IMG/VR virus record: IMGVR_UViG_3300035034_001269
Location: 1 to 51,144 of that record
Length of the DNA: 51,144 nt
Strand: one strand, 5' to 3'
Source of the DNA: a virus
Part shown: positions 3,506 through 26,619 of the stretch, one piece after another
Layout of the letters: the number at the start of each line of letters is the position of its first letter
Numbering within the stretch: the stretch's first letter is position 1
The notes under the pieces: generated by a model
Told to the model about the DNA's origin: nothing
What the model saw: only the letters and a program-made list of their open reading frames with translations
Database searches by the model: none
Program-made: the position numbers and the translations under genes

Positions 3506-3925
3506 ATGAGTGAATACAGTCAGTCGTATATCGACAAATTTATGTACCGTTGGAAGGCGATTCGGACCTCAGTAAACGGTTGTGCTATCAGCATCATTCC
3601 GTTCGCATTCCTTGACCTATTGAACAGCCTGTTATGGAAGTCGGCACTGGTCACATTGATTGCCCAATGTGGTATGCTGGGGTTCTTTTTCTGTGTTATC
3701 ACATTCCTAGTCATCTTCTTTTATTACGACATCAAGAAGACGAAGGTTGATTGGTTCATCAGGATGAGGGAAATAGACAGAATATTTGATGAAGATATGG
3801 ATCGTCTTGAGAGGAGGCTTGACAGGAGTCTTGACAGGAGTATACAGTTGAATCCTAAATCACAATGGAAACATAACCCTAATCGTAATCATTTTTCAGA
3901 GAATGAGGATATATTCACAATATGA
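3506..3925 (+). CDS. membrane protein with C-terminal EDIFTI tag
   Basis: 139 aa. Two hydrophobic segments (about residues 25-45 and 50-74) are followed by a basic/acidic helix rich in RLERRLDRSLDRS-type repeats and a C-terminal NEDIFTI, a divergent form of the EELFTI tail. No Shine-Dalgarno is visible before the ATG, which falls where the early promoter should start transcription. The next in-frame Met (residue 13) also lacks one. The stop overlaps the next start as ATGA. Confidence 0.6.
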   Translation: MSEYSQSYIDKFMYRWKAIRTSVNGCAISIIPFAFLDLLNSLLWKSALVTLIAQCGMLGFFFCVITFLVIFFYYDIKKTKVDWFIRMREIDRIFDEDMDRLERRLDRSLDRSIQLNPKSQWKHNPNRNHFSENEDIFTI

Positions 3926-4191
3926 ATGAGATACTTATAGATACATTTGAATATCTAGCCAGTTTACCTGATGGTACGAAACTTAAAGAACATGGTAAGT
4001 ATGGTGTCAAAGAAATGCGCAAAGGTCATACTATTGACAACACAGTAGAACTTATATATTCAATCGGTGGATTTAAAGATGAGTCATTTGATTTAACTTG
4101 TGAACATTATAACAAGGTTTTATTAAGAGGCGATAGTAAATTATATTATGTAAATGAACAATATTTTGATGAGGATATATTCAAGATATGA
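3922..4191 (+). CDS. small tagged protein (FDEDIFKI tail)
   Basis: 89 aa, unrecognised, acidic. The C-terminus FDEDIFKI matches the shared tail with Ile for Leu. It is coupled by ATGA to the membrane protein upstream. The 48 bp after its stop contain no credible gene, so here the tail is not followed by an overlapping start that continues into a real ORF. Confidence 0.6.
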   Translation: MNEILIDTFEYLASLPDGTKLKEHGKYGVKEMRKGHTIDNTVELIYSIGGFKDESFDLTCEHYNKVLLRGDSKLYYVNEQYFDEDIFKI

Positions 4192-4239
4192 AAGATTTGA
4201 CTTAGACAATAAACTTGAACGATATGGGAGTAGACACTA

Positions 4240-4560
4240 ATGGAATTATTCAAACAATATCAATCACTTGAAGAGAAGATACACTCATACTTTGGGTATG
4301 TAGAGGATTGGAAAGTCATTCCGATGGACTCTCAAACCGAAATGTATTGGAAATTGGAGTTGGAAGATGGTGTTCTTGTTTCTGTGTGGTTTGGACCGAC
4401 CGTAGAAGATGTTGAAATGTATCGTAATGATATCTACACTCAGCGATTCTTATCCAAATATGTATATCGTGGTGAAGACTACACGATGATCAGTGTTGAC
4501 ACACATGTAGATGGCAACAAGTTCCTACAAATCTTTGATAATGCCAAAGAAATCACTTGA
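4240..4560 (+). CDS. small hypothetical protein
   Basis: 106 aa, unrecognised, predicted mixed alpha/beta. GGGAG lies 9 bp before the ATG. No C-terminal tag (it ends AKEIT). An early promoter for the next unit begins inside its last codons. Confidence 0.6.
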   Translation: MELFKQYQSLEEKIHSYFGYVEDWKVIPMDSQTEMYWKLELEDGVLVSVWFGPTVEDVEMYRNDIYTQRFLSKYVYRGEDYTMISVDTHVDGNKFLQIFDNAKEIT

Positions 4561-4585
4561 CCGCCTGACAGGTCAATGATATAGT
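4557..4585 (+). promoter_or_regulatory. sigma70-type early promoter
   Basis: TTGACC, 17 bp, TATAGT. The -35 overlaps the stop region of the preceding gene; the leader carries AAAGGAAG before the 40-aa ORF. Confidence 0.7.
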
Positions 4586-4615
4586 GGGGTTCTCTCTCAT
4601 AGAAAGGAAGTTCAA

Positions 4616-4738
4616 ATGTCAGGATTGGTCACTAAAAAACATTTCTTCTTGATTGGTCGATCCTTCGGATACAAGAAAGCATTCAAACTTCTCTTCTCAC
4701 GTCAACCTGTCGCACTACTCGTATTGATGGTGGGCTAA
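4616..4738 (+). CDS. very small basic protein
   Basis: 40 aa (MSGLVTKKHF...ALLVLMVG), basic with a hydrophobic C-terminus that could be a short membrane helix. A strong AAAGGAAG ribosome site and an early promoter sit directly upstream, which supports expression. Function unknown; host-takeover genes of T4-like phages are often this small, but that is only analogy. Confidence 0.5.
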   Translation: MSGLVTKKHFFLIGRSFGYKKAFKLLFSRQPVALLVLMVG

Positions 4739-4740
4739 TC

Positions 4741-4875
4741 ATGAACCCATTCGATAAGCGTAAACCTTCAAACGAGAAATGTCCTCAGTGTAAAAAGCCG
4801 ATGATCAGAGAAAAGGTTGACGGTGATTACTATCTCGTATGTGAACCATGTGAAATTAACTTTAGGGATAGATGA
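4741..4875 (+). CDS. small zinc-ribbon protein
   Basis: 44 aa with two CxxC knuckles (KCPQC at 14-17, VCEPC at 34-37), a one-domain zinc ribbon. It follows the 40-aa ORF by 2 bp in the same early unit; GGTGGG upstream could serve as the ribosome site. Such ribbons commonly bind nucleic acid or RNA polymerase; the partner is unknown. Confidence 0.6.
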   Translation: MNPFDKRKPSNEKCPQCKKPMIREKVDGDYYLVCEPCEINFRDR

Positions 4876-4888
4876 TGTACGAATAACC

Positions 4889-4917
4889 TTGACTCCAATC
4901 GGTAACGGGTGTAGAAT
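4889..4917 (+). promoter_or_regulatory. sigma70-type early promoter with hairpin leader (copy 1)
   Basis: TTGACT, 17 bp ending CGGGTG, TAGAAT. The leader contains a GTGGTC/GACCAC stem (4924-4941) followed by CCCAACGAAAGG, the ribosome site. The same promoter-leader cassette recurs at 5420. Confidence 0.75.
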
Positions 4918-4958
4918 GTAGTTGTGGTCGGGAATGACCACCCAACGAAAGGATTGAC

Positions 4959-5414
4959 ATGGCAAAGGTACTCAGAAATCAAACAGAAGTTTTCCTCGAC
5001 GTTGTGGAAGAATCAAAAAACTTTGGTGAGTATAATGATTGCACTGTCAAGTCAATTGCTATCACCACTGGTGTTGCCTATAATAAGGTTCATGCCGCTC
5101 TGAAAAAGGTTGGTCGGAAAGACCGTAAAGGTGCTACCATCTGTCAAATGCAAAGTGCATGTCTTGACCTTGGTTTCATGATGAAGGTTGTTGCAACGAA
5201 ACGGTTCAAGGATAACTACCCCGCCGCAGGTCGCAAACTCAAGAATATCACCACTAACCACCCTGAACGATTCAACAAGGCATGGAAAGATGGTAACAAT
5301 TATATACTCTCTTGTCGGAGTCATGTTGCCCCTGTTGTTGATGGTGTTAACCATGATTGGACTCTTGGACGGAAATACCGTGTCAACATGGTTTATGAAG
5401 TTTTTCCTGTATAA
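4959..5414 (+). CDS. putative papain-like/C39-like cysteine protease
   Basis: 151 aa. The N-terminal EYNDCTVKSIAI places a Cys (residue 28) at the start of a helix after N-D, and RSHVAPVVDG places His122 on a strand followed by D128 and N131/D133. This Cys...His...Asp/Asn order and the D-C-x-V-(K/R)-(A/S) context resemble compact papain-fold (C39-like) proteins known in phages. Activity is inferred, not shown. It is the only gene of its early transcript before the next promoter, so it is probably a host-directed early protein. Confidence 0.5.
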   Translation: MAKVLRNQTEVFLDVVEESKNFGEYNDCTVKSIAITTGVAYNKVHAALKKVGRKDRKGATICQMQSACLDLGFMMKVVATKRFKDNYPAAGRKLKNITTNHPERFNKAWKDGNNYILSCRSHVAPVVDGVNHDWTLGRKYRVNMVYEVFPV

Positions 5415-5419
5415 TTATC

Positions 5420-5448
5420 TTGACTCCAAAGGTCAACGGGTGTAGAAT
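5420..5448 (+). promoter_or_regulatory. sigma70-type early promoter with hairpin leader (copy 2)
   Basis: TTGACT, 17 bp ending CGGGTG, TAGAAT; leader stem GTGGTC/GACCAC at 5455-5472, then CGAAAGG. Near-duplicate of the cassette at 4889. Confidence 0.75.
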
Positions 5449-5493
5449 GTAGTTGTGGTCGGGAATGACCACCCAATACGAAAGGTAATCATC

Positions 5494-5841
5494 ATGGCTT
5501 ATATGTCTCAGGAACACAAAAAAGAAATTGCACCAGTAATCAAAGCTATCTGCAAAGAGTATGGTATCAAAGCCACTCTGTCTGTTCGTCACCACTCAAC
5601 TCTCTGTTTGAACATCAAATCTGGTAAACTCGACTTCGGTGATACTCGTCAAGTCAATCCCTATTGGTTAGAAAACAACTACGAAGGTCGTGTTCTGGAA
5701 TTCCTACAGAAAGCCAAAGCCGCTCTCTACGGTCCTCGTTACTACGACAACTCCGAACCAATGACTGACTACTTCGATACCTCTCACTATATTGAAATCA
5801 ATGTAGGTAAATACGATAAACCTTATGAGCTGACTGTCTAA
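5494..5841 (+). CDS. conserved phage protein (SVRHHSTL family)
   Basis: 115 aa starting MAYMSQEHKK; this ATG is preferred over an upstream in-frame one because AAAGG lies at proper distance. The motif SVRHHSTLCLNIKSG is one I associate with a small protein family common in large phages and mobile elements; its biochemical role is not known to me. It ends with TAATG overlap to the next gene. Confidence 0.65.
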   Translation: MAYMSQEHKKEIAPVIKAICKEYGIKATLSVRHHSTLCLNIKSGKLDFGDTRQVNPYWLENNYEGRVLEFLQKAKAALYGPRYYDNSEPMTDYFDTSHYIEINVGKYDKPYELTV

Positions 5842-7129: not shown

Positions 7130-7333
7130 ATGAAACTACAGAAATGTCGTAATATAAAGTCAGGCAAACTCTACTATGTCATTGATGATAATGTAATTAA
7201 TACCACTACGGGTGCTGATCGTGAAATTATGGTCACATATTATGGTAAGAACTTATGTGGTGTCCACCCTTGTCGATACACCCGGAACAAAGAGGAGTTC
7301 TTGACCAAGTTTGAAATGTTAGGGGATGTGTAA
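7130..7333 (+). CDS. hypothetical small protein
   Basis: 67 aa, basic, beta-rich, unrecognised. Its stop overlaps the next ATG (TAATG). No tail tag; it sits just before the first closely packed tagged genes. Confidence 0.55.
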   Translation: MKLQKCRNIKSGKLYYVIDDNVINTTTGADREIMVTYYGKNLCGVHPCRYTRNKEEFLTKFEMLGDV

Positions 7334-7560
7334 TGGAAAGGCTTAGAGTAGGCGATACCTTTTGTTCGCAAAATAACAAGAAAAACCCATACACTGTTAT
7401 CAATGTAATGTCTGATGGATATGTCGTTAGACAACAGAGTAAATCAATAGACGAAACGTATAACACCAGTGCTATACATGAACTATTCACTCTGACTCTG
7501 CCTTGGGAACTAATACGAAAGGAGGTCATACACTTTGAGGATGACTTATTCACATTATGA
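7333..7560 (+). CDS. tagged small beta-barrel-like protein (FEDDLFTL)
   Basis: 75 aa. MERLRVGDTFCSQN at the start matches the (K/R)VGDxF/V opening of SH3-like small beta-barrels, followed by PYTVINVMSDGYVV-type strands. C-terminal FEDDLFTL; the codons (gag gat gac tta ttc) differ from those of most other tails. ATGA overlap with the next gene. Confidence 0.65.
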   Translation: MERLRVGDTFCSQNNKKNPYTVINVMSDGYVVRQQSKSIDETYNTSAIHELFTLTLPWELIRKEVIHFEDDLFTL

Positions 7561-7853
7561 TTGTCGGGTCACGTGTTAGGATAAAATCTTGGCTCACCAT
7601 TGAGGATACTCTTGATCGTACTAGCCATCCGGATGAATTAGGTTGTCTCAAAGGGGAAAATCTAAACTTCGCCAGATCGATGAAGAAGTTCTGTAATATG
7701 AAGACACGTATTATAGGTATGACCAATCATCAAACGTTGGGTTATATGACATATACACTTGAAGGATGCGAGCTTTGGGCTTGGCATGGTGATTGGATAT
7801 ATGACATGTCAAACAAAAGGAATGATTTTTCTGATGAGTTATTTACACTATGA
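7557..7853 (+). CDS. tagged small protein (FSDELFTL)
   Basis: 98 aa beginning MIVGSRVRIKSW, again SH3-like in pattern. Tail FSDELFTL, encoded by gatgagttatttaca. ATGA coupling at both ends. Confidence 0.65.
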   Translation: MIVGSRVRIKSWLTIEDTLDRTSHPDELGCLKGENLNFARSMKKFCNMKTRIIGMTNHQTLGYMTYTLEGCELWAWHGDWIYDMSNKRNDFSDELFTL

Positions 7854-8158
7854 CACTTGAATACCTACAGAACTATTTCGTTGGGCAACGCTTCACTATC
7901 AAATACGACTCTGTTGGTGGTGCTACTGAGGTATTTGAACTCCATATCAAACATATTGGTGAGAAGTATATCGACTGTTATTACAGGTACTTGGAGTCAA
8001 ATGATAACACTAAAAAGACAGGTAATTTAAAGTATGAACGATGGCTAATTGATGATATGATCAAAGATGCTTGGAATGGCAAGGATAGTTGGGTACTGAT
8101 CGGTTTCTATCCAATCAAACCCTTGAATGACTTACCAGAGGAATTATTCAGGATATGA
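7850..8158 (+). CDS. tagged small protein (LPEELFRI)
   Basis: 102 aa, beta-rich (FTIKYDSVGG..FELHIKHIG), tail LPEELFRI. ATGA overlap with the zinc-ribbon gene downstream. Body unrecognised. Confidence 0.65.
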   Translation: MTLEYLQNYFVGQRFTIKYDSVGGATEVFELHIKHIGEKYIDCYYRYLESNDNTKKTGNLKYERWLIDDMIKDAWNGKDSWVLIGFYPIKPLNDLPEELFRI

Positions 8159-8421
8159 GTGACCTACTAGTTGAATTTGCACAAATCCGATATGATTTAG
8201 AGAATCATGTACGCCCTGATATGTGTAAGTGTTCTAATTGTGGTTGGCAGGGTGACCGTATGGACTGTGAATCTGAATGGGAATCCGAAGGTTGGGAATA
8301 CCCAGACTATCAAGTTGACCTTTGCCCTGTATGTCCTGATGGTGGGTGTATTGATGACTACTGGATGAGTTCATCTCAATATGAAATTACCGAAATTGTT
8401 GATATTATAAAGGATGCTTAA
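8155..8421 (+). CDS. zinc-ribbon protein
   Basis: 88 aa. CKCSNCGW (24-31) and CPVCPDGGC (58-66) give two cysteine knuckles around an acidic loop. No C-terminal tag, although it lies inside the tagged run. Overlaps the next gene by one base (TAATG). Confidence 0.6.
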   Translation: MSDLLVEFAQIRYDLENHVRPDMCKCSNCGWQGDRMDCESEWESEGWEYPDYQVDLCPVCPDGGCIDDYWMSSSQYEITEIVDIIKDA

Positions 8422-8771
8422 TGAAACCGTATAAACTAAAACGTAAACAAGAGGCACACCGCAAGAAGAATCCCACTAGATTCAATCGTAAACAGTGGTT
8501 GATTGCTATGACCAAGAAGATTGCACTTGATGTATTCAATAGGAATCATTCATATGATTGGACTTGGAGTCCCGGTACACCACTTGACTCTTTTGGTAGT
8601 GACATGTATTATGAAGCTGAAGGGGAATTCAATCTTCAATATGGTGACGTTGAACTGATGTTCCCTCTATATCTGAAATGTGAGAAGGTATTAGAAGACA
8701 ATAAGAAGAAATCTGAATATATCCAAAAGATATATGTTCCCTTTGAAGAAGACCTGTTCAGCATTGTATAA
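8421..8771 (+). CDS. tagged protein (FEEDLFSIV), not overlapped
   Basis: 116 aa with a very basic N-terminus (KPYKLKRKQEAHRKK), so possibly nucleic-acid binding. It ends FEEDLFSIV. The tail is followed by TAA and a late promoter, and the next start is 25 bp away with its own AGGAG, so here the tail is not needed as a ribosome-binding region. Confidence 0.65.
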   Translation: MKPYKLKRKQEAHRKKNPTRFNRKQWLIAMTKKIALDVFNRNHSYDWTWSPGTPLDSFGSDMYYEAEGEFNLQYGDVELMFPLYLKCEKVLEDNKKKSEYIQKIYVPFEEDLFSIV

Positions 8772-10039: not shown

Positions 10040-10047
10040 TATAAATA
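10040..10047 (+). promoter_or_regulatory. T4-type late promoter TATAAATA
   Basis: Perfect late box embedded in the left arm of the hairpin at 10044-10075. Initiation 5-7 bp downstream would begin inside that arm, so late mRNA could not form the hairpin. Confidence 0.75.
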
Positions 10048-10075
10048 CTCCTGACTACTATCAGGAGTATTTTTT
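10044..10075 (+). terminator. intrinsic terminator and RBS-sequestering hairpin
   Basis: AATACTCCTGA (10044-10054) and TCAGGAGTATT (10061-10071) form a perfect 11-bp stem with a 6-nt loop followed by TTTTT. The right arm holds AGGAG, the ribosome site of the HNH gene at 10076. Upstream read-through would terminate or hide the site; late transcripts would expose it. Confidence 0.8.
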
Positions 10076-10589: not shown

Positions 10590-10755
10590 TGATATTGTAA
10601 ATAAATTCATCATTAATGAAGCTAATAGAAAAAATGTCGATAAAGCTGTTGACTCTTTCTTTAAACAACTTCAAGATGGTGCATCCAAAAATGACCTTCA
10701 AGATGAGATTGATTGGGTTGTCTCTGAACTAAAATTACAGGCAGGTATCAAATGA
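10582..10755 (+). CDS. capsid-targeted very small helical protein
   Basis: 57 aa. MIDDIVNKFIINEA carries I-N-E/A, strikingly like the EFIAEA of T4 internal-protein tags. The remainder is a charged helix. It overlaps both neighbours (8 bp and ATGA). After predicted cleavage only about 44 residues would remain. Confidence 0.6.
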   Translation: MIDDIVNKFIINEANRKNVDKAVDSFFKQLQDGASKNDLQDEIDWVVSELKLQAGIK

Positions 10756-11330
10756 AATTTGAAACATATTTAAATGAAGCCAAATCGGTTCAAGTAGACT
10801 CTCTTGGCAGGTTTATTCGTTTTCGTCAAGGTGACCATAATGCGTCTGTCTGGAAGGATAAGGTTCAATACAGTATTAAGTCTAAATCTGTAGAACGTGA
10901 TGAGTTTGTAAAACACCGTGATGGTATGGCAGTTGGTCGTGTTATCGCATTTGCAAAGAAGGATATAGAGGCATATTTCAAAGGTGGTGAAGACCTCAAG
11001 CCTTGGATGAACCCAGACAAAGGACAACGTGGTTACCTCCAAGAAGCAAAACGCAAGTCTAAGTTTGACTATCAGATATATCACAATTCATATACCTCAG
11101 CAGTTGACACTGGATTGAAACACGCAGAGGTCAAGGGATATACCACTGACCCTGATGAAGTGTCAACACTGGTAGGATTTGGACCTAAAAAGCCGGGTCG
11201 GGGTAAGACAACCACGGTTCATATCCCTATCTATAAGAATGACAAACCACAAAAGAAAGCATTACATATTGTAGTGTACAATCGTGAGACAGAATCAAAT
11301 CCTTATGAATTAACGGCATACATATTATGA
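10752..11330 (+). CDS. capsid-targeted protein with second internal LxE site
   Basis: 192 aa. It starts MKFETYLNEA (L-N-E/A). A second RGYLQEAKRK at about residue 95-104 offers L-Q-E/A, so the precursor could be cut into an ~87-aa peptide and an ~95-aa C-terminal domain. The C-terminal part (GKTTTVHIPIYKND..LHIVVYN) looks like a separate beta domain. Function unknown; ATGA overlap with the next gene. Confidence 0.65.
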   Translation: MKFETYLNEAKSVQVDSLGRFIRFRQGDHNASVWKDKVQYSIKSKSVERDEFVKHRDGMAVGRVIAFAKKDIEAYFKGGEDLKPWMNPDKGQRGYLQEAKRKSKFDYQIYHNSYTSAVDTGLKHAEVKGYTTDPDEVSTLVGFGPKKPGRGKTTTVHIPIYKNDKPQKKALHIVVYNRETESNPYELTAYIL

Positions 11331-11870: not shown

Positions 11871-11899
11871 TTGACATCACCCACCCCTTTTGGTATTAT
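11871..11899 (+). promoter_or_regulatory. sigma70-type early promoter inside a terminator
   Basis: TTGACA, 17 bp ending TTGG, TATTAT. The -10 forms the loop of the hairpin at 11884-11911, so transcripts from this promoter start in the right arm and escape the hairpin. Confidence 0.8.
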
Positions 11900-11916
11900 T
11901 ACCCAAAGGGGTTTTT
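11884..11916 (+). terminator. terminator/RBS hairpin overlapping promoter
   Basis: CCCCTTT (11884-11890) pairs with AAAGGGG (11905-11911), with extra GG/CC pairs, followed by TTTTT. It would stop late read-through from the capsid-protein run; GGGG also serves the next gene as ribosome site. Confidence 0.65.
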
Positions 11917-11918
11917 AT

Positions 11919-12182
11919 ATGATTAACTTTAATGACATACAGGCAGGTACTCAAATACATGTGGTTCATAAGCATGGTGATAAATTCACCCTCACTAGTC
12001 TATTTAAATATAATAACGAATCGAAACTTAGATTAACATACACTGACAAACGCGGGGTTGTTAGTGAAATTAATTACAGTGTTGACGAAATAACCAAATT
12101 CATTAATCTTAATGTGTGGGTCGAATACAATATGACTCATCCACACAGTGTCGTACTGCCTGAGGAGTTGTTCACGATATGA
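11919..12182 (+). CDS. tagged small protein (LPEELFTI), first of plus array
   Basis: 87 aa starting MINFNDIQAGTQIHV; this ATG is preferred because it follows the early promoter and GGGG at 8 bp. Short beta strands (GDKFTLTSLF, SKLRLTYTD) fit a small barrel. Tail LPEELFTI; ATGA overlap. Confidence 0.7.
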   Translation: MINFNDIQAGTQIHVVHKHGDKFTLTSLFKYNNESKLRLTYTDKRGVVSEINYSVDEITKFINLNVWVEYNMTHPHSVVLPEELFTI

Positions 12183-12400
12183 CCTGTTTGAAATATAGAA
12201 TGTATCCAGAAGCGACTGAATATATCCATGAATACAACTATCCCATTGGTCATAGAGATATTATGAAACACGGTACATTTAATGTCTTGAAATTTGAAGG
12301 CTCATGTGCTAAGATACAGATTGATGATCAATTTTACTATCTGTCTAAGTACGACATCTACCCTGTTGAACAATTCCCAGAGGAACTATTCAATATATGA
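12179..12400 (+). CDS. tagged small protein (FPEELFNI)
   Basis: 73 aa. The body, with GTFNVLKFEGSCAKIQIDDQFYYLSKYDI, resembles an SH3-type strand pattern. Tail FPEELFNI, ATGA overlaps on both sides. Confidence 0.65.
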   Translation: MTCLKYRMYPEATEYIHEYNYPIGHRDIMKHGTFNVLKFEGSCAKIQIDDQFYYLSKYDIYPVEQFPEELFNI

Positions 12401-12666
12401 ATACATTCAAAGTAGGAGATAAGGTTTCTCTAATAAGAGATGATCGCAATAAAAAGTATTGGAAACTCCATTATAATGCCAAAGACCGTGAACTTATACA
12501 CACAGTTGTGGCAATCCGTACAGTTGTGGCAATCCGTGGCCCAGGCGCTAGACACTTGATCTGCCTAGACATTTGGGGTGTTGACTCAGAAGAATTCATA
12601 TATGCTGATAGATTTGAACTGGCCAAACTACAAGTGAAACTACCTGAGGAACTATTCAATATATGA
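12397..12666 (+). CDS. tagged SH3-like protein with internal duplication
   Basis: 89 aa opening MNTFKVGDKVSLIRD, a typical KVGDxV barrel start. Residues around 36-47 read VVAIRTVVAIR because of an 18-bp tandem duplication, which inserts one extra strand-like hexapeptide. Tail LPEELFNI; ATGA overlap. Confidence 0.7.
   Translation: MNTFKVGDKVSLIRDDRNKKYWKLHYNAKDRELIHTVVAIRTVVAIRGPGARHLICLDIWGVDSEEFIYADRFELAKLQVKLPEELFNI
12502..12537 (+). repeat. 18-bp perfect tandem duplication
   Basis: ACAGTTGTGGCAATCCGT occurs twice in direct succession, keeping the frame of the surrounding tagged gene. Confidence 0.9.
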
Positions 12667-12923
12667 ATCTCAGACAAAACACAAAATATCACTTGAATGT
12701 TACCGATGAGGAGGAGTATACTTTCGTTATAGAAGATGAGTATGATGATGACTATCATATCATCTTTACCGCTGTCACATCAAAATACGATAACTGGGTG
12801 GGTAGGACAATCGACCTGCACTACAATAAGGAAGCTGTAGCAAGTTATATCAGATGCCGTGATTGGATTGTCACTGAAATACTACCACCTGTCGAACTAC
12901 CTGAGGAATTATTCACCATATGA
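12663..12923 (+). CDS. tagged small protein (LPEELFTI)
   Basis: 86 aa with an acidic middle (EDEYDDDYHI), unrecognised. Tail LPEELFTI preceded by PPVE; ATGA overlaps both sides. Confidence 0.65.
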   Translation: MNLRQNTKYHLNVTDEEEYTFVIEDEYDDDYHIIFTAVTSKYDNWVGRTIDLHYNKEAVASYIRCRDWIVTEILPPVELPEELFTI

Positions 12924-13147
12924 GATATCCAGTTGGAACTATATTGAAATCACATTCACCCCTTAATTGGTACGGGGAAGTCATTGGTATCAAAAATGGT
13001 AAATACCTAATCACTTGGTCTGATGCCGTCTTTTCGGGACCAACCCTTTATAATGAAAGAGAATTAAGGAGACTTGTCCGTGATGGAGATATGACATGGG
13101 TGTTACCATTTACTCAACATTTACCTGAGGAATTATTCACCATATGA
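12920..13147 (+). CDS. tagged SH3-like protein (LPEELFTI)
   Basis: 75 aa. GTILKSHSPLNWYGEVIGIKNGKYLITWSD has the turn-rich strand pattern of SH3/KOW barrels and is similar to the gene at 14668 (GIVVDIRHGKYIVKWND), so the two are probably paralogues. Tail LPEELFTI. Confidence 0.7.
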   Translation: MRYPVGTILKSHSPLNWYGEVIGIKNGKYLITWSDAVFSGPTLYNERELRRLVRDGDMTWVLPFTQHLPEELFTI

Positions 13148-13389
13148 AATTCTACGCAGGTCAAAGAGTTAAACTGAAACCATACCGTGATGAATTTGAT
13201 AACTTGATAAATGAAAATATGATTCAATGGTTCGATTCTATTGTCACTCTTAGTAGTGATATCGATACTGAAAATCGTAACGCTATCTTCACTATCACTG
13301 AGGACAGTAATCAATGGTTGTGGTTAGGTGTTTGGATTGTTACCAATAGAATCAAAATTGAACTACCTGAGGAACTATTTACATTATGA
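13144..13389 (+). CDS. tagged small protein (LPEELFTL)
   Basis: 81 aa, opening MKFYAGQRVKLKPY, similar to minus-strand proteins opening MKFYLGQKV and MKFKLGQQV; this is evidence of paralogy across the two arrays. Tail LPEELFTL, ATGA overlaps. Confidence 0.7.
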   Translation: MKFYAGQRVKLKPYRDEFDNLINENMIQWFDSIVTLSSDIDTENRNAIFTITEDSNQWLWLGVWIVTNRIKIELPEELFTL

Positions 13390-13709
13390 TTGAACCACTT
13401 TATACAGGCGATGAACCTAAACGAAGACTTCGGGCTGACTCCAATATGACTAATGCTGTCAATATGTGGTATCTACACGCACTTCAACCCGGATCTTGCA
13501 CTGAACTAGTACTCAGAGGTCAGTATGATGAGGCACTTCTACACGCTCATGTGAACATTAGACCAATCTTTGGGGAATTCATTGAATGGGTTGAACTCTA
13601 TGTACCTGACTGCTGTAAGAACGAGAACTACGACAAGTGGAGAGGTATTGACTACTACAACCAAAGACACGAATTCAATGTCGATGAGGAAGAGGCTTTC
13701 AAATGCTAA
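13386..13709 (+). CDS. array member with degenerate tail (DEEEAFKC)
   Basis: 107 aa, acidic, unrecognised. It ends VDEEEAFKC, where the LF pair has become AF and the last hydrophobic residue Cys, so the tag may be decayed. It overlaps the next gene by 7 bp (TTCAAATGCTAA) rather than by ATGA. Confidence 0.6.
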   Translation: MIEPLYTGDEPKRRLRADSNMTNAVNMWYLHALQPGSCTELVLRGQYDEALLHAHVNIRPIFGEFIEWVELYVPDCCKNENYDKWRGIDYYNQRHEFNVDEEEAFKC

Positions 13710-13945
13710 ATTTCTCAAAAGGTGAACGATTCCGATATGTTGGAGGTGGTAAGGATATACCAACTAAAGGCACTACTAAAGGTAATGTCTATACTGTTGA
13801 CTACATCCTTGATCACCGTGAAGCATGGCGATCAGAAGAGGAACTATACATTGGATTCTATGATGATAACCAGATACTCACTGATGTCTATTTCTATGAA
13901 TGTGAGAAATTACCAACTCTACCTGAGGAACTATTTATATTATGA
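13703..13945 (+). CDS. tagged small protein (LPEELFIL)
   Basis: 80 aa, opening MLNFSKGERFRYVGG, similar to FKKGDK openings of the minus array. Tail LPEELFIL. Confidence 0.65.
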   Translation: MLNFSKGERFRYVGGGKDIPTKGTTKGNVYTVDYILDHREAWRSEEELYIGFYDDNQILTDVYFYECEKLPTLPEELFIL

Positions 13946-14163
13946 CAGACATATTAAAAGTTGGGGATAGTGTTAAACGCTTCAACAGCGATCATATGGG
14001 TATGACCGTTGGTGATACTGCCATTGTAACAGGTTTATCGCCATTAGGTGTGACGCTTGGTGTATCACTAGATAAATATAGGGGAATACACGCATCATAT
14101 AATCTTGAACTGGTCAATAGACACAAACCTGTTTCGCTTCCAGAGGAACTATTTACAATATGA
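13942..14163 (+). CDS. tagged SH3-like protein (LPEELFTI)
   Basis: 73 aa. KVGDSVKRF..MGMTVGDTAIVTGLSPLGVTLGV gives a clear small-barrel strand rhythm. Tail LPEELFTI; ATGA overlaps. Confidence 0.7.
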   Translation: MTDILKVGDSVKRFNSDHMGMTVGDTAIVTGLSPLGVTLGVSLDKYRGIHASYNLELVNRHKPVSLPEELFTI

Positions 14164-14456
14164 AATATGAAGTCGGAACGAAATTCCACACTTATGCTAA
14201 CAGAACTTCACAACAGGGGTGTGATATCGATAACCCCATGTATGGGGAAATCCTTGAAATTGATACTATCAGAAGATCATACCTTGTTCGTTGGAATTAT
14301 TACGATGGGCTTGGTGACTTCAACACTTCTTACACTGATGAATCGTTTAATTATGTCCTTGGACACTTCGGGGAAAATGACCCTGTTGGTTTAGTCCGTA
14401 TTGAATTCCCATCCAAACCATTTGAACTTTTTGATGAGGAGCTGTTCACGATATGA
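14160..14456 (+). CDS. tagged small protein (FDEELFTI)
   Basis: 98 aa with YGEILEIDTIRRSYLVRWNY, another SH3-like pattern. Tail FDEELFTI, the form commonest in the minus array. Confidence 0.65.
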   Translation: MKYEVGTKFHTYANRTSQQGCDIDNPMYGEILEIDTIRRSYLVRWNYYDGLGDFNTSYTDESFNYVLGHFGENDPVGLVRIEFPSKPFELFDEELFTI

Positions 14457-14671
14457 ATATCCAAATAGGTGACACTTTTGATACACCCAGAACTATTCTC
14501 ACTATCACTGGTATTACCAATAATATATATGTATACAAATGTAAATACAAAATTGATGGTAGAGTGGCATATACTAGTGCCATGAAATCACAATTTGAAG
14601 AGCTTTATAAGAAGTATAAATGGACACACACATCTATTAATATTCTCCCAGAGGAACTATTCACCATATGA
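14453..14671 (+). CDS. tagged small protein (LPEELFTI)
   Basis: 72 aa opening MNIQIGDTFDTPRTILTITGI, an IGDTF barrel start. Tail LPEELFTI. Confidence 0.65.
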   Translation: MNIQIGDTFDTPRTILTITGITNNIYVYKCKYKIDGRVAYTSAMKSQFEELYKKYKWTHTSINILPEELFTI

Positions 14672-14907
14672 CTACGGACGATCAACTACGCACCAAAATC
14701 GCTATTGGTACTCAACTCAAAGCTCTACTATCCACTCAAGGTGATGGTATTGTTGTTGATATCCGCCATGGTAAATACATTGTTAAATGGAATGACTTAG
14801 GCGAAAAATCACATTCCCTATACCATATCGGGCAAGTTATCACTGTCGGTCAATATAATGTAATCCCTCCCCCTAATAATCTCCCAGAAGAACTCTTTAT
14901 CATCTAA
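14668..14907 (+). CDS. tagged SH3-like protein (LPEELFII), last of plus array
   Basis: 79 aa. GDGIVVDIRHGKYIVKWNDLG matches the 12920 protein. It ends LPEELFII and TAA with no overlapping gene; the next start is 50 bp away behind a late promoter. The tail is therefore kept without a coupling role. Confidence 0.7.
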   Translation: MTTDDQLRTKIAIGTQLKALLSTQGDGIVVDIRHGKYIVKWNDLGEKSHSLYHIGQVITVGQYNVIPPPNNLPEELFII

Positions 14908-20269: not shown

Positions 20270-20530
20270 TCACACGACAAACAAGTTATCAGGCAAATCA
20301 TCAGGCTGAGAGATAGAGAGGATAGTGATACCTTCACTATTTCTGTTTTCCTCAGAGAGCATACACCAAAACGAGTAATGTTCAGAAATGTGACCCGTAT
20401 TCAGATCAGTGCAAGTCCACTCCACCCCCTTTGAATTGACCATAGTAGCCAACCAATGAACAATCTTATTAGGATCATCGGGGTGATATGGATATTGGAT
20501 AGTCATTTGAGTGCCTACAAGGTATCTCAT
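20270..20530 (-). CDS. tagged protein (LPDNLFVV), last of minus array
   Basis: 86 aa, unrecognised beta-rich body (TQMTIQYPYHPDDPNK..LATMVNSKGVEWTC). Divergent tail LPDNLFVV. No gene follows, so the tail has no coupling role here. ATGA overlap at its start. Confidence 0.65.
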   Translation of the reverse strand: MRYLVGTQMTIQYPYHPDDPNKIVHWLATMVNSKGVEWTCTDLNTGHISEHYSFWCMLSEENRNSEGITILSISQPDDLPDNLFVV

Positions 20531-20793
20531 ATAGTAAAAAGTTCCTCATCAAAGGGAGAATAAGGGATGATGTTATGTTCAGACCAATTTCCACCAATAC
20601 CATCATCAAGAGTATAGTGGTTACAGTTATAGTGGGTCGTGTGGGTCGCGGAGATAGTAAAGACTCTGCCCTTTTTGAATATGTTATGAGCATCTGCATT
20701 CCAATCGGATAGTTTATCCTCAGGGGAAGCATCGTCATACTCTTGAATAATGTTAGGGCAAAGGCAGACCTTTTGTCCGAGATAGAATTTCAT
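20527..20793 (-). CDS. tagged protein (FDEELFTI)
   Basis: 88 aa opening MKFYLGQKVCLCPN, paralogous in its first residues to the 13144 and 22521 proteins. Tail FDEELFTI. Confidence 0.7.
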   Translation of the reverse strand: MKFYLGQKVCLCPNIIQEYDDASPEDKLSDWNADAHNIFKKGRVFTISATHTTHYNCNHYTLDDGIGGNWSEHNIIPYSPFDEELFTI

Positions 20794-21071
20794 AGAATGA
20801 AAAGTTCCTCAGGAAGAATAATTTTAGGTAATACTACAAAATGGTTTTCACTGAGCATAGGTACATCGCCGGAAGGACCAATAATTTTATTTCCATTAGG
20901 ATATCGAAAGGAGAACATATAATTCTCCTCTTCTCTAATCACCATAATTTTACCGCGGACACAATGACCATAATAGCACTTTGCGAGATTGTGGTTAATT
21001 TTGGCTAAGAGACAGTCATGTGGAATGTGTTGACCGGAGTATATATTATCAATTAATAATTGTTTATACAT
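20790..21071 (-). CDS. tagged protein (LPEELFIL)
   Basis: 93 aa, KIMVIREEENYMFSFRYPNGNKIIG in the middle, unrecognised. Tail LPEELFIL. Its start overlaps the 22-aa mini-ORF by 8 bp. Confidence 0.65.
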   Translation of the reverse strand: MYKQLLIDNIYSGQHIPHDCLLAKINHNLAKCYYGHCVRGKIMVIREEENYMFSFRYPNGNKIIGPSGDVPMLSENHFVVLPKIILPEELFIL

Positions 21072-21132
21072 TAAACTCCTCCTCAGGTAGCGAGTTTTTA
21101 TTTTTAATTTCTTTCAAACGATCATCGTTCAT
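21064..21132 (-). CDS. 22-aa mini-ORF ending in the tag (LPEEEFNV)
   Basis: ATG overlaps the upstream stop as ATGA. The product is 14 residues of charged helix plus LPEEEFNV, essentially a tag without a body. Its GAGGAGG would be the ribosome site for the next gene. It may be a deletion remnant, a coupling spacer or a functional free tag. Confidence 0.5.
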   Translation of the reverse strand: MNDDRLKEIKNKNSLPEEEFNV

Positions 21133-21443
21133 AATATAAACAAGTCATCATCGAGATAATTAGAGTTACGATGGATCACCAATCGTTTATCCGTTCTATC
21201 ATGTATGACTTTAAAAGTTTTATAAGTGAGAATCTGAAGGTTAATGATGTGAGGATTATATGTTCGGTGACCGGGTTTATAATCATCTTTAAACCATTGT
21301 AGTTTAACTCCTTCGCCATTTTCAATAATTTCGAGAATTTTGCATCTGGCATATGGGATATTCGGATAACCTTCGTTATCTGTCAAGTCATAGTATTCAA
21401 TTTCATCGCCGGGATAAACGGTATGGTATTTTTTAATAGTCAT
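21129..21443 (-). CDS. tagged protein (LDDDLFIL)
   Basis: 104 aa, YPGDEIEYYDLTDNEGY..YARCKILEIIENGEGVKLQWF, SH3-like. Tail LDDDLFIL encoded by gatgatgacttg, which lacks the GAGGA core, so the peptide is kept without the ribosome-site sequence. Confidence 0.7.
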   Translation of the reverse strand: MTIKKYHTVYPGDEIEYYDLTDNEGYPNIPYARCKILEIIENGEGVKLQWFKDDYKPGHRTYNPHIINLQILTYKTFKVIHDRTDKRLVIHRNSNYLDDDLFIL

Positions 21444-21655
21444 ATGGTAAACAATTCCTCAGGTAGAGCATCCGTAAAGGGGATATAAGTATAGTCAGAA
21501 TGATCATCAAGGAATCTTGTAAGGAAATCGATTTCAAGTGTAGTAGGTTTGTCAACGTTGTTTTTCAGATGAACTCTACCATCAATGACTTTAGTAATTC
21601 TAGCATACTTGCCACCGGGAGAGAGGATTTTGTCACCTTTTTTAAAGTTAAACAT
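21440..21655 (-). CDS. tagged SH3-like protein (LPEELFTI)
   Basis: 71 aa, FKKGDKILSPGGKYARITKVIDGRVHLKN: a textbook small-barrel strand/turn order. Tail LPEELFTI. A 61-bp gap precedes it, with no clear promoter. Confidence 0.7.
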   Translation of the reverse strand: MFNFKKGDKILSPGGKYARITKVIDGRVHLKNNVDKPTTLEIDFLTRFLDDHSDYTYIPFTDALPEELFTI

Positions 21656-21716: not shown

Positions 21717-22073
21717 TCAGTCAATAAATAAATCTTCATCAAAATGAGAAGTAGGTGGTTCAGGTGGCACAATAATTGCCGGTGTGCCGGGTTTCATTAG
21801 AGCTTGGCAATATTTATGATCACCGTATCTTTCAGGAGCAACAGTGACCCCACCTTGCACTTCCCACCCGCATTGAATGAGGTGATTAACAATCCTTACA
21901 AGCCCTCCATATCCAATTCGTTCGACGATCTTGTATTCAGGAAGGGTAGGGTCGGGCAGATCGGGTTCTGGTTGTTCCATTAGATGTTGAGGTATATAAC
22001 TGTCATCCATCATTTCGGGTGTCATCCTCGGCATACCGAGAAGGTCGTTGATGTCATCAAAGGGTATCCTCAT
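21717..22073 (-). CDS. tagged protein (FDEDLFID)
   Basis: 118 aa with a proline-rich acidic middle (EQPEPDLPDPTLPEYK) and YGGLVRIVNHLIQCGWEVQGGVTV, resembling DUF1737-type small domains in phages. Tail FDEDLFID, the only one ending in Asp, and not overlapped by a downstream gene. Confidence 0.65.
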   Translation of the reverse strand: MRIPFDDINDLLGMPRMTPEMMDDSYIPQHLMEQPEPDLPDPTLPEYKIVERIGYGGLVRIVNHLIQCGWEVQGGVTVAPERYGDHKYCQALMKPGTPAIIVPPEPPTSHFDEDLFID

Positions 22074-22291
22074 AATGTAAATAGTTCCTCATCAAAATGT
22101 TCTGGTACGATAGTGAGAATCTTAGCTGGGTGAATTCCCATCACATCATCGTCTTTATACTTTACAACAAAGGAGTATCCGATGTCAACAATGGTGCCGA
22201 CTTGACCGTACCATTTAGAGATAGGTGAGTTATTTCTAACTCTGTCACCGATCCGTAGTCCGTAGATAACATTCTCATAATAATGATTCAT
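22070..22291 (-). CDS. tagged SH3-like protein (FDEELFTL)
   Basis: 73 aa, LRIGDRVRNNSPISKWYGQVGTIVDIGYSFVVKY: SH3/KOW-like. Tail FDEELFTL; ATGA both sides. Confidence 0.7.
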   Translation of the reverse strand: MNHYYENVIYGLRIGDRVRNNSPISKWYGQVGTIVDIGYSFVVKYKDDDVMGIHPAKILTIVPEHFDEELFTL

Positions 22292-22524
22292 AGAATGAAA
22301 AGTTCCTCATCAAAGTGATCTCTTTGGCATAGGTAGAAGTTTCTGTGGTCGTAGCCATCCTTTAGACCTTCAATGCTAACCCAATTATTGTGGACTCTTC
22401 TGACGATTAAGATGTCATCAGATCGTAAGTTGTTCGCGAACATATTGATGATAAGAGTCCGAGTGTTGTTTCGACCTTCCACAACATTCAGTTGAACTTT
22501 GTCACCTACTTTGAATGGGTTCAT
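22288..22524 (-). CDS. tagged SH3-like protein (FDEELFIL)
   Basis: 78 aa, FKVGDKVQLNVVEGRN opening, close to the 12397 protein. Tail FDEELFIL. Confidence 0.7.
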   Translation of the reverse strand: MNPFKVGDKVQLNVVEGRNNTRTLIINMFANNLRSDDILIVRRVHNNWVSIEGLKDGYDHRNFYLCQRDHFDEELFIL

Positions 22525-22775
22525 AATGTGAATAGTTCCTCAGGGAGATAGTTGAGTTCTTGTAGTTCATATTCGTACCATTGGAATTCGCTGTTCTCAA
22601 CCTTGTAGCTGACATCGTACCCATAACCATCGTACCCATCATCATCAATACCGATGATAGTGGTACGTCTAATATTGAGCACAAGGTTAACAGCTTCTTT
22701 ATGCCATTCGTTTTTATTGGCTTCCCTGATAGCCCGTTCGGAGAAGCCGACCTGTTGACCTAGTTTAAATTTCAT
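22521..22775 (-). CDS. tagged protein (LPEELFTL)
   Basis: 84 aa, FKLGQQVGFSERAIREANKNEW, then an acidic Gly/Asp/Tyr loop (GIDDDGYDGYGYD). Tail LPEELFTL. Confidence 0.7.
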   Translation of the reverse strand: MKFKLGQQVGFSERAIREANKNEWHKEAVNLVLNIRRTTIIGIDDDGYDGYGYDVSYKVENSEFQWYEYELQELNYLPEELFTL

Positions 22776-23092
22776 ATTTTGAATAGTTCCTCATCCAGTT
22801 TAACGGGTTCGACAAGACAAATTTTCAAGATCATATCAAAGCGGTATTGTTGTTCGCGTCCTTTCCATATACCGAAAGATCGGTGGTTACCTTTTTGATG
22901 CCATAGCACGTCACCTTCTGACTTTAATTTATATGATACTTCTTCGTACTTAAGTAACTCGTTGTATTCATGAAGAGTGACAATCTGACCTTCATTCCTA
23001 ACGATGTCCTCAACGAACTCATCAATGAAGTGTTCTTTAATGTCATCACATTTAGGGTCAATTTTTCGAACAATGGCTCTTACAGTTTTCAT
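22772..23092 (-). CDS. tagged protein (LDEELFKI)
   Basis: 106 aa from MKTVRAIVRKID; this Met gives the ATGA overlap seen throughout, whereas a longer in-frame start would lie deep in the upstream gene. Tail LDEELFKI. Confidence 0.65.
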   Translation of the reverse strand: MKTVRAIVRKIDPKCDDIKEHFIDEFVEDIVRNEGQIVTLHEYNELLKYEEVSYKLKSEGDVLWHQKGNHRSFGIWKGREQQYRFDMILKICLVEPVKLDEELFKI

Positions 23093-23388
23093 AGTGTGAA
23101 TAGTTCCTCTGGTAGTTTGAATTTTGGTTTGGGTGTATACAACCAATCGTGAACAGCATCATCAAAACAATTTTTTAGGTCATTGAGAGATACATCGTGA
23201 CCCCACCCAACAGCAGACGGTCTACTAGATTCAACGACCTGTATATGTGCCCAACCTGCACCCAAGACATCCCATGTCGAAGTAACTTTGTAAAAGTATA
23301 CATGTTCAACCTCATCCTGAGTATTCCAAGATTCGGTGATGACATCCCCTATGTTTAGAGGTTGACCTATGTAATTGAATTGGCTCAT
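23089..23388 (-). CDS. tagged protein (LPEELFTL)
   Basis: 99 aa, PLNIGDVITESWNTQDEV..YKVTS, a barrel-like opening. Tail LPEELFTL. Confidence 0.65.
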   Translation of the reverse strand: MSQFNYIGQPLNIGDVITESWNTQDEVEHVYFYKVTSTWDVLGAGWAHIQVVESSRPSAVGWGHDVSLNDLKNCFDDAVHDWLYTPKPKFKLPEELFTL

Positions 23389-23552
23389 AGGTAAGTACCC
23401 TTTGTGTCACCTGTCATATTCTTATCGTTAGACAAGTACCACCAAAGCATGGCATACCCGAAGTGAGAGATACCAGTAGGGTCAAGAAGTCTGATTGCCC
23501 CGTAAGTGGCAACCAACATAAGGATTGAATTTAGTCTTAGGAATATTTTCAT
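23385..23552 (-). CDS. small membrane protein inside the array
   Basis: 55 aa, MKIFLRLNSILMLVATYGAIRLL: a hydrophobic N-terminal segment, then a Trp-rich stretch (AMLWWYLSND). No tag. ATGA overlaps on both sides tie it into the array operon. Confidence 0.6.
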   Translation of the reverse strand: MKIFLRLNSILMLVATYGAIRLLDPTGISHFGYAMLWWYLSNDKNMTGDTKGTYL

Positions 23553-23782
23553 AGTGTGAACAGTTCCTCATCCAGTTGAAAGGGTTGGATCTTTTTAATG
23601 ATAACAAACCTCCCTGATCGTTCCTTAATATCCCTGTCGATTCGTTTTCTAGAGATGTGGAGACGTTGTCCACTATCCAGAACGACATCAACTCTGGTTG
23701 GTAGAATCTCTATGATAGTGTATACATACTTTTTAAAATTCAATTGGCTATTATACACTATAGTATCACCGACCTTATACAT
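23549..23782 (-). CDS. tagged SH3-like protein (LDEELFTL)
   Basis: 77 aa, YKVGDTIVYNSQLNFKKYVYTIIEIL opening. Tail LDEELFTL. Confidence 0.7.
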   Translation of the reverse strand: MYKVGDTIVYNSQLNFKKYVYTIIEILPTRVDVVLDSGQRLHISRKRIDRDIKERSGRFVIIKKIQPFQLDEELFTL

Positions 23783-24008: not shown

Positions 24009-24244
24009 TATATCCCGCCTTTGTTTTCGGCTTCAATTGAGCCGTCAATTATTCCTTCAATTCGTTTCTGGCAATCTTCAAATGAATCATCCTGACCATC
24101 ACCTCTCATACCAGCGTGATATTTCCAAGTGGTACAGAAGTCATTAATTTCACATGTGATATACCATGCGATGCCCCTGTAAGTACCTTTATAAGTTTTA
24201 AAGGTTTCAAATGAAACAATTGTAAAGGGTGTGTTGTTAGACAT
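24008..24244 (-). CDS. untagged array member
   Basis: 78 aa from MSNNTPFTIVSF; this Met overlaps the upstream stop like other array genes. Unrecognised alpha/beta protein. Confidence 0.55.
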   Translation of the reverse strand: MSNNTPFTIVSFETFKTYKGTYRGIAWYITCEINDFCTTWKYHAGMRGDGQDDSFEDCQKRIEGIIDGSIEAENKGGI

Positions 24245-24509
24245 TGAATAGCTCCTCTTCAAAGTGTTTCGATAACAAACGAAATTCTGGTTTCAATGTC
24301 CAGAATGTAACATACTTATGGTTACGAGTGATAGCCATTTCTACTTTATCCCATTCATCATTGGTAGTTTTTATAGAGTAATGAGGAACATAGTCTACCA
24401 AGGCACAGTTATCATTAATGAATTCTTGAGAGATATCCATCATTTCATATTGGACGGCCCTGCCACCTGTTTCTTTGTGACGGTATGTGTGCATTATAGA
24501 AACTTTCAT
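24237..24509 (-). CDS. tagged protein (FEEELFNV), first of minus array
   Basis: 90 aa from MKVSIMHTYRHKETGG, chosen for the purine-rich AAGGAAGGTGGG upstream. QYEMMDISQEFINDNCALVDYVPHYS is unrecognised. Tail FEEELFNV. Confidence 0.6.
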   Translation of the reverse strand: MKVSIMHTYRHKETGGRAVQYEMMDISQEFINDNCALVDYVPHYSIKTTNDEWDKVEMAITRNHKYVTFWTLKPEFRLLSKHFEEELFNV

Positions 24510-24526
24510 TAGTATTCCCACCTTCC

Positions 24527-24825: not shown

Positions 24826-24826
24826 T

Positions 24827-25375: not shown

Positions 25376-25416
25376 CGGTAAACCTTCCGTTAATATAGAA
25401 TCATTCCTACATAAAC

Positions 25417-25445
25417 ATAATACCAGTTCTGTCAAGTAATGTCAA
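25417..25445 (-). promoter_or_regulatory. sigma70-type early promoter
   Basis: TTGACA, 17 bp ending CTGG, TATTAT on the minus strand; drives the HAD gene and the minus array. Confidence 0.8.
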
Positions 25446-25452
25446 ATGAAAA

Positions 25453-25489
25453 AACCCCCGGACGGGCATAATATATACGGCCGGGGGTT
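25453..25489 (-). terminator. intrinsic terminator
   Basis: AACCCCCGG (25453-25461) pairs with CCGGGGGTT (25481-25489); on the minus strand the stem runs into TTTTTT. It separates the 26-31 kb minus genes from the HAD promoter. Confidence 0.8.
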
Positions 25490-25534
25490 ATAAAATGTGT
25501 TAAAGGTTAATAATGAGGTTTCATTGAGATATTT

Positions 25535-25567
25535 TCATAGTTCCTCATTAGGTGAGTAATCTTCCAT
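25535..25567 (-). CDS. 10-codon ORF with strong RBS
   Basis: AAAGGAGG precedes ATG; the product is MEDYSPNEEL, ending in ATGA like the array genes but without the LF. Possibly a decayed tagged gene; low confidence. Confidence 0.25.
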   Translation of the reverse strand: MEDYSPNEEL

Positions 25568-25577
25568 AATCCTCCTT

Positions 25578-26261
25578 TTATAATCCTAACCTTTCCATTT
25601 TCATTCTCCAAATTTCATCTTCATTGGCATCGTCACTCATTGATTGATGTCGTTGTTCTTCACTCCTTACCTGAGTTGACAATCTCTCAATATCCTCTTG
25701 TAACAGGAAGATTCTAAAACGCCCGTATACGAGAGATGTCAATGAGGCGAATATCAGATTTAAACACAAGGCAATCCAGAAATATTCTTTGATGATCAGT
25801 GCAACGGCTGACATGTTAATCAAGGCGGTAGGTGTTAATATCAAACTACCTAATCCACCTACGATTAGAACAAACGATACCATTACAGCATAGAAAATCC
25901 ATGACCACATCAGGTAACGAGAGAAGAAATATTTGATCTTCATAACTCTAGTTTCAGTCCAGTATGTCATACTGTTTAGGAATAAACTTAGATGCCAATG
26001 ACAAAACAAAGCACCGAATCCCCCGATAAAACATAGCGGGTAGAAGATACCTGTCATGGCAAACCCACACCACACACCAATCTGACCACCAATCATAACT
26101 TTACCAATCACCAAACCTATGTTGATTAGTGTGGCAGAGATAGTGATGGAAAAACTCCCCATCGTGATGCGGTCTTTGAATGAAGATATAGATGTTGATC
26201 TAAACTCATCAGTCCAACGAGTTTTGATGTTAGACCATTTTCTCTTTATCCATCTAAACAT
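25578..26261 (-). CDS. multi-pass membrane protein
   Basis: 227 aa from MFRWIKRKWS (GAGAGG upstream); a longer reading frame begins antisense-like inside the neighbour and is rejected. About five hydrophobic segments (residues 34-75 with two, 95-115, 120-150, 155-175), then a charged C-terminal coiled coil (EEQRHQSMSDDANED). Inner-membrane protein of unknown role. Confidence 0.65.
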   Translation of the reverse strand: MFRWIKRKWSNIKTRWTDEFRSTSISSFKDRITMGSFSITISATLINIGLVIGKVMIGGQIGVWCGFAMTGIFYPLCFIGGFGALFCHWHLSLFLNSMTYWTETRVMKIKYFFSRYLMWSWIFYAVMVSFVLIVGGLGSLILTPTALINMSAVALIIKEYFWIALCLNLIFASLTSLVYGRFRIFLLQEDIERLSTQVRSEEQRHQSMSDDANEDEIWRMKMERLGL

Positions 26262-26274
26262 TAAATAAATCCTC

Positions 26275-26619
26275 TCATAATTCAAACAGGTCATCGTCAA
26301 AGAAATCTTTCGGGCTGATACTACCACCATGTTTTTCAACCATGACACGGTGACCTTCATATGCTTCGTCCCATGTAGGGTAACGTACCATATCTTCCTC
26401 ACGGAAATTCTCAGTAGGGAAATACATTGTTTCAAACAGAATTGGTATACCGTCATTTGACCAACTATGATCTAGTGCAAGGAACACTGTGGACACAAAG
26501 CCACCGTTAGGTAAAGATGTCTTACCAACAACTCTACTGTCACGGTCATACGATGTAGCATATTCATCTAGCGAACATTCCACCGGAACCTTATCAACAA
26601 GTTTATAATATTTAATCAT
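26275..26619 (-). CDS. conserved phage protein with tag (FDDDLFEL)
   Basis: 114 aa. ALDHSW..G.PILFETMYFP and RYPTWDEAYEGH follow the pattern of a small family frequent in phages of many hosts. The C-terminus adds FDDDLFEL, encoded by gacgatgacctgttt and followed by a separate ribosome site for the next gene, 13 bp further. It is strong evidence that the tail is selected as peptide and appended to an otherwise widespread protein. Confidence 0.7.
   Translation of the reverse strand: MIKYYKLVDKVPVECSLDEYATSYDRDSRVVGKTSLPNGGFVSTVFLALDHSWSNDGIPILFETMYFPTENFREEDMVRYPTWDEAYEGHRVMVEKHGGSISPKDFFDDDLFEL

Follow-up and report, generated by a model that had tools for sequence, protein, structure and literature searches.

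Here, we report that about 31 small proteins encoded on IMGVR_UViG_3300035034_001269, a virus contig of 51,144 bases that was analysed over its whole length (the window), end in a common acidic and hydrophobic C-terminal peptide, hereafter the tail. The tail is real, modular, conserved at the protein level, and confined to one T4-like lineage among the sequences searched. Judging from its sequence and distribution, we consider it rather likely that the tail acts as a docking tag on early proteins for one common partner. The contig most likely represents part of the genome of an uncultured T4-like myovirus, because it carries T4-type genes, its head completion protein gp4 matches that of the closest relative found (the 56.7-kb contig G003, gp4 identity 66%), and positions 1-25000 gave no near DNA match to the phage collection by megablast. 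No published description of a shared C-terminal motif on small phage proteins was found in the open-licence literature.

Occurrence of the tail

A scan of all open reading frames (ORFs) in the window for the strict pattern [LFIMVYW][PDENSGT][DENSK][DENS][LI]F.[ILVFM] at the exact C-terminus retrieved 28 ORFs, located on both strands, whose ends take the form [LF]-[PDES]-[DE]-[DEN]-[LI]-F-x-[ILV]. Three others carry looser tails, i.e., NEDIFTI (3506-3925), FEEDLFSIV (8421-8771), and FDEDLFID (21717-22073), which brings the total to about 31. An initial annotation had counted some 32 tiny proteins with a common C-terminal peptide at these places and is borne out; two of its gene bounds were corrected, 23146 to 23092 and a start at 11871 to 11919, as 11871 is the -35 box of a promoter (see below). 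The genes considered, with lengths in amino acids (aa) and distances in nucleotides (nt), are as follows.

3506..3925 (+): 139 aa, hydrophobic (membrane-like) body, tail FSENEDIFTI
3922..4191 (+): 89 aa, tail FDEDIFKI; next start 48 nt downstream, no coupled start
7333..7560 (+): 75 aa, tail FEDDLFTL
7557..7853 (+): 98 aa, tail FSDELFTL
7850..8158 (+): 102 aa, tail LPEELFRI
8421..8771 (+): 116 aa, tail FEEDLFSIV; last gene of its array, no coupled start; tailed homologue in G003
11919..12182 (+): first gene of the longest array, tail LPEELFTI
12179..12400 (+): 73 aa, tail FPEELFNI
12397..12666 (+): 89 aa, SH3/Tudor-like body (modelled), tail LPEELFNI
12663..12923 (+): 86 aa, tail LPEELFTI
12920..13147 (+): 75 aa, tail LPEELFTI
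13144..13389 (+): 81 aa, tail LPEELFTL
13386..13709 (+): 107 aa, degenerate end VDEEEAFKC; its G003 homologue, L026:5925-6200, ends FTDDKLFEV
13703..13945 (+): 80 aa, tail LPEELFIL
13942..14163 (+): 73 aa, tail LPEELFTI
14160..14456 (+): 98 aa, tail FDEELFTI
14453..14671 (+): 72 aa, tail LPEELFTI
14668..14907 (+): 79 aa, tail LPEELFII, codons GAA-GAA, stop TAA; last gene of the array, no coupled start
20270..20530 (-): 86 aa, tail LPDNLFVV; last gene of the minus-strand array, without Shine-Dalgarno-like string
20527..20793 (-): 88 aa, tail FDEELFTI
20790..21071 (-): 93 aa, tail LPEELFIL
21129..21443 (-): 104 aa, tail LDDDLFIL
21440..21655 (-): 71 aa, tail LPEELFTI
21717..22073 (-): 118 aa, looser tail FDEDLFID
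22070..22291 (-): 73 aa, tail FDEELFTL
22288..22524 (-): 78 aa, tail FDEELFIL
22521..22775 (-): 84 aa, tail LPEELFTL; tailed G003 homologue L025:8496-8753
22772..23092 (-): 106 aa, tail LDEELFKI
23089..23388 (-): 99 aa, tail LPEELFTL
23549..23782 (-): 77 aa, tail LDEELFTL
24237..24521 (-): 94 aa, tail FEEELFNV, stop TAA
26275..26619 (-): 114 aa, unrelated fold; the model shows the tail FDDDLFEL as disordered; tailless homologue in a Rhizobium phage

Strict matches end 23 of the 121 non-overlapping ORFs of the window, against 0.003 expected from amino-acid composition. Within proteins, the pattern occurred at two of 14,563 positions, and one of these is the tail of 8421-8771 itself. The gap between the upstream aromatic or aliphatic residue and LF is variable, so that the core reduces to an acidic run and, at the C-terminus or very close to it, [LI]F-x-[ILV]; a few tails extend one or two residues further. 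A strict tail-like LEDELFKL is present internally, around residue 66 of the 116-aa protein 35194-35544(+), and may be due to chance.

The profile search of phage sequences that had been proposed as a check used a position-specific weight matrix derived from 67 tails of eight related contigs, with a cut-off of at least 10 bits. It recovered the tail in 25 of 121 genes of the window, 21 of 107 in G003, 10 of 96 in G007, 10 of 394 in G006, and 8 of 273 in G001, without any match at internal control positions and with none in the sampled parts of T4, syn9, XacN1, HTVC008M, and one Vibrio phage. The core in its DNA form matched 1 to 13 times across the related contigs (13 in G003) and not at all in nine complete isolate phage genomes, T4 and syn9 included. 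Further tail patterns returned the same few contigs again, plus isolated hits. Several hits of the DNA pattern in GC-rich contigs were single and chance-like and were not used.

Constraint on the peptide and on its codons

Of the 28 strict tails of the window, 25 share an ATGA overlap with the start codon of the following gene. Codon use was analysed in 81 tails collected with a pattern that requires Phe, and 29 of them lack this overlap. Where the overlap exists, all 21 Glu codons at position -6 are GAG, as compared to 34% in other genes, and the codon at -5 is mostly GAA. The resulting GAGGAA string, with GAGG placed 13 nt before the ATG, is clearly a nucleotide constraint, most simply a Shine-Dalgarno-like element. 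The Leu at -4, in contrast, is written in five ways (CTA, TTA, TTG, CTG, and CTT), with CTA mildly over-represented relative to background (p 0.006), and the Phe at -3 is written TTC or TTT. This Phe is never replaced among the 81 tails, as selected by the Phe-requiring pattern, and a looser matrix scan adds just a few Trp variants, with Trp at -3 in two cases of the LPEEWFEI type.

Tails are also kept where nothing is coupled to them. The gene 14668..14907, which has no coupled successor, retains LPEELFII but is written with GAA-GAA and TAA. The related contig G003 holds 19 non-overlapping tailed genes (e.g., LPNDLFEV and FDDNLFEV) with mostly TAA stops and mostly Asp/Asn in the acidic pair, while in its eight overlapping tails position -6 is back to GAG in six. 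Based on the turnover of Leu and Phe codons and on the tails kept without an overlapping successor, the peptide is selected for itself, and its Glu codons carry a second message. Conservation of a ribosome-binding site, which the initial annotation had raised as a possible full explanation, hence accounts for the codon choice of the Glu pair and fails for the peptide.

Proteins that carry the tail and its retention among phages

The tail sits on bodies of different kinds. A small barrel with the signature VGDxV...VxW is common to many bodies of the window and of G003, and a subset of tagged bodies is SH3/Tudor-like (VGDxV...VxWDNG), with PHROG matches (phrog_11307 and relatives) for L018:12048 and L065:7175. 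Its model is a beta-barrel in which the tail forms a short helix (pLDDT about 83). In the model of 26275..26619, residues 109-114, i.e., the tail, are disordered (pLDDT <50) and lie beyond the folded body; a search for relatives of this protein in viral contigs found none. Tails were further found on DUF932 proteins of three contigs (DGEDLFTI, DAGDLFII, and NSDLFVVS), on a candidate P-loop ATPase family (DEGLFRI, EGELFRI, and EGDLFKV) recognized by weak profile hits and a visible GxxxxGK[ST]-type loop, and on proteins that from their sequence are zinc-ribbon or low-complexity proteins. The 31 window members fell into no consistent family when scanned against Pfam and PHROG, and none of the 31 matched PADLOC models, which cover defence and not anti-defence.

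Two UvsW helicases from two contigs of the lineage, L074:4419-5879(-) and L062:16354-17835(-), end in the tail-like ...DIFESDLFIVE and ...DMFESSLFGEQQKNPTLS, respectively, which is not so in all UvsW homologues.

Homologues were searched across phages with the tails removed from the query bodies. By pattern, the tail is kept in 16 of 24 cross-phage homologous pairs, or in 17 of 24 if LPDHLFTL is counted; the other seven pairs comprise three UvsW, two SLOG-like, one L019, and one spurious case. Loss happens but is not the rule, as illustrated by 13386-13709, where VDEEEAFKC stands against FTDDKLFEV in the G003 homologue. Outside the lineage, body homologues in Proteus, Aeromonas, and Rhizobium phages have no tail, including the barrel homologues of Proteus T4-like phages and of an Aeromonas phage. 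Codon turnover with fixed residues, non-overlapping cases, unrelated folds, and cross-phage retention together make it well supported that the tail is a short linear motif common to many differing bodies, as first proposed.

Promoters and gene context

The longest array is headed by an early-type promoter. This sigma70-type sequence (TTGACA-17-TATTAT with a TG extension; 11 of 12 matches) spans 11871..11899(+) and lies about 20 nt before the first gene at 11919. The late-type motif TATAAATA occurs 13 times in the window against 5.1 expected and precedes other genes, once directly after the last gene of the array (14913); none of these late promoters in the window points into a tagged array. 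The strong promoter before the array and the lack of late motifs into the arrays suggest that the tagged genes are expressed early. Tagged genes follow directly after gene 47 and/or gene 46 in G001, G004, G006, G008, and G010.

At 10040-10075(+) and 39266-39231(-), the bases that follow the late-promoter-like TATAAATA form a hairpin, succeeded by a T run and then ATG, such that promoter and terminator-like hairpin overlap. Similar promoter/leader blocks precede several small genes (4889-4980, 5420-5500, 33951-33880(-), and 34687-34610(-)) and consist of TTGAC...TGTAGAAT or TATTAT, GTAGTTG or GAGTTG, often ACCACCCAA, and then CGAAAGG.

A putative docking tag and its alternatives

In the mechanism that we propose, the tail would be a short, mostly unstructured peptide, [LF]-(2 to 5 acidic/polar residues)-[LI]-F-x-[ILV]-COOH, which one lineage of T4-like phages has added to many early proteins whose bodies are otherwise unrelated. 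The body would provide the activity and the tail the address, by which all tagged proteins would be recruited to a common partner. In tight arrays, the same 27 nucleotides serve twice, with GAG-GAA as a Shine-Dalgarno-like string and the last bases as the next ATG. From the recurrence of tagged genes directly after gene 47 and/or 46, our preferred guess is that the partner belongs to the phage replication-recombination or transcription apparatus. More tentatively, the tail may be a genome-wide C-terminal address tag through which a single receptor, possibly an undescribed phage-built hub, gathers dozens of unrelated early proteins, and which doubles in gene junctions as the ribosome-binding site of the next gene.

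Several points weigh against a docking tag. Binding as such and a single partner are both inferred. In the SH3-like family the tail helix might pack on its own barrel. Many of the tagged proteins are probably paralogues, which inflates the number of independent cases, and tailless homologues exist, namely SLOG proteins, UvsW in G001, and 13386-13709 in the window.

One partner named in the initial annotation was the sliding clamp. Clients of the T4 clamp have interchangeable hydrophobic and acidic C-termini (PMC2988020; PMC7892883), and the clamp-binding motif of gp43, gp55, gp33, and DNA ligase is likewise a short hydrophobic/acidic peptide, often C-terminal, on functionally different phage proteins. 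The tail resembles it as a hydrophobic/acidic C-terminal peptide on a flexible linker, according to its composition and its disorder in one model, and tails occur on one UvsW helicase (G007) and on genes next to gp46/47. However, the T4 motif is SLDFLF/Y and the window tail [LF]-x-acidic-acidic-LF-x-[ILV], and in these same genomes the C-termini of gp43 and gp55 present another epitope: lineage gp43 ends in IDSIFG, QAFNFFFGG, FNLFFGG, or QAFNLFFGGSQQ, and lineage gp55 carries [AG]IDY[TR]xM/L followed by a mostly basic end; no gp33 of the lineage was identified. The phage clamp gp45 is therefore not supported as the partner, and docking on it is unlikely. The bacterial beta-clamp motif Q-phi-x-[LM]-[FL] also ends in Leu-Phe, often within a disordered segment, but requires Gln first and an aliphatic residue second (PMC11139829), whereas the tails have D/P/E/N/S at -7 and E/D/N/S at -6, and none of the 67 has either the Gln or the aliphatic residue there. 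On the host side, too, the clamp is not supported as hub.

Host RNA polymerase as the docking site of the early proteins is likewise improbable. It would fit the early-type promoter, and the weak neighbours of the barrel model in a structure search, which are SH3/Tudor-like, include the RNA-polymerase-interaction/Tudor domains of CarD, Mfd, and UvrD. This search, however, gave no significant match (best E 0.24), Tudor, PWWP, and eIF5A folds score alike, and no motif links the tail to the polymerase.

Two explanations without a docking partner are very unlikely. As a degron, the tail would set the lifetime of early proteins, in line with its C-terminal position and hydrophobic last residue; it is, however, strongly acidic before LF, unlike ssrA-type C-terminal degrons, and a few tails have one or two extra residues. 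Alternatively, the arrays could be shuffled gene cassettes that recombine at the conserved junction of tail, ribosome-binding site, and ATG, with the peptide carried along. One junction indeed recurs among many bodies, but its codons outside the Shine-Dalgarno part vary about as in the genome, apart from the mild CTA excess, and the peptide is kept in dispersed single genes and in non-overlapping arrays.

We give still less credence to the tail as a structural element of one SH3-like fold kept through paralogy only, which could be argued from the VGDxV...VxW signature of many window bodies and the ordered helix in the barrel model, since unrelated folds are also tailed and the SH3-like homologues of Proteus phages and an Aeromonas phage are tailless. 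Least probable is a nucleotide by-product, in which each gene end would supply the following gene with a ribosome-binding site and a start codon and the peptide would merely result: GAG at -6 and the usual GAA at -5 where ATGA overlaps, and the start overlapped by most window tails, speak for it, yet Leu and Phe stay fixed while their codons vary, GAGG is far from the ATG for a Shine-Dalgarno site, and tails in genes without an overlapping successor, in G003 arrays without GAGG, and in isolated genes elsewhere refute it as sole cause and leave it as a second layer of constraint.

Relation to other terminal peptides

Hydrophobic residues that close the protein after an acidic stretch are also known from the C-terminal tip of SSB (DDDIPF) and from the acidic C-terminus of T4 gp32, and lineage gp32 ends in DDTDALLAELQKM and similar sequences. 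SSB needs its terminal Phe, whereas the Phe of the tail is third from the end, and the tail is found on dozens of small proteins rather than on a single hub protein. The capsid targeting sequence of T4 internal head proteins is another short terminal tag on many proteins of one phage genome but is N-terminal; its M[KR][FL]xxYLxE form in the window is never on a tailed gene, and some of these genes have a late promoter upstream. Cleavage by the prohead protease (L-x-E) was dropped as a reading of the tail because many tails, in G003 and elsewhere, have Asp/Asn at -6.

Eight window proteins start with M[KR][FL]xxYLxE: 1497-2327(-), 10752-11330, 11327-11848, 14957-15451, 15451-15693, 39542-40486(-), 44901-45401(-), and 45358-46041(-). 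The protein 39542-40486(-) has a zeta-toxin-type kinase domain.

Other genes of the window

48024-48503: head completion gp4, matches 2,465 phage records
48398-49021: DNA end protector
35690-36928(+): asparagine-synthase/glutamine-amidotransferase-like protein, with TATAAATA directly upstream
49255-50376(+): 373 aa, Pfam Volactin match (E 6e-57), an actin-like family in this T4-like phage fragment

Implications

Most small early phage genes lack a known function. With about 30 of them sharing one tag, they would come down to a single question, namely what reads the tag, and naming its partner would provide the first functional handle on the whole set. If the docking tag is true, writing it into the gene junction would let new genes join an array already tagged. 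Across an entire gene array, a protein motif and a translation signal would then clearly occupy the same nucleotides.

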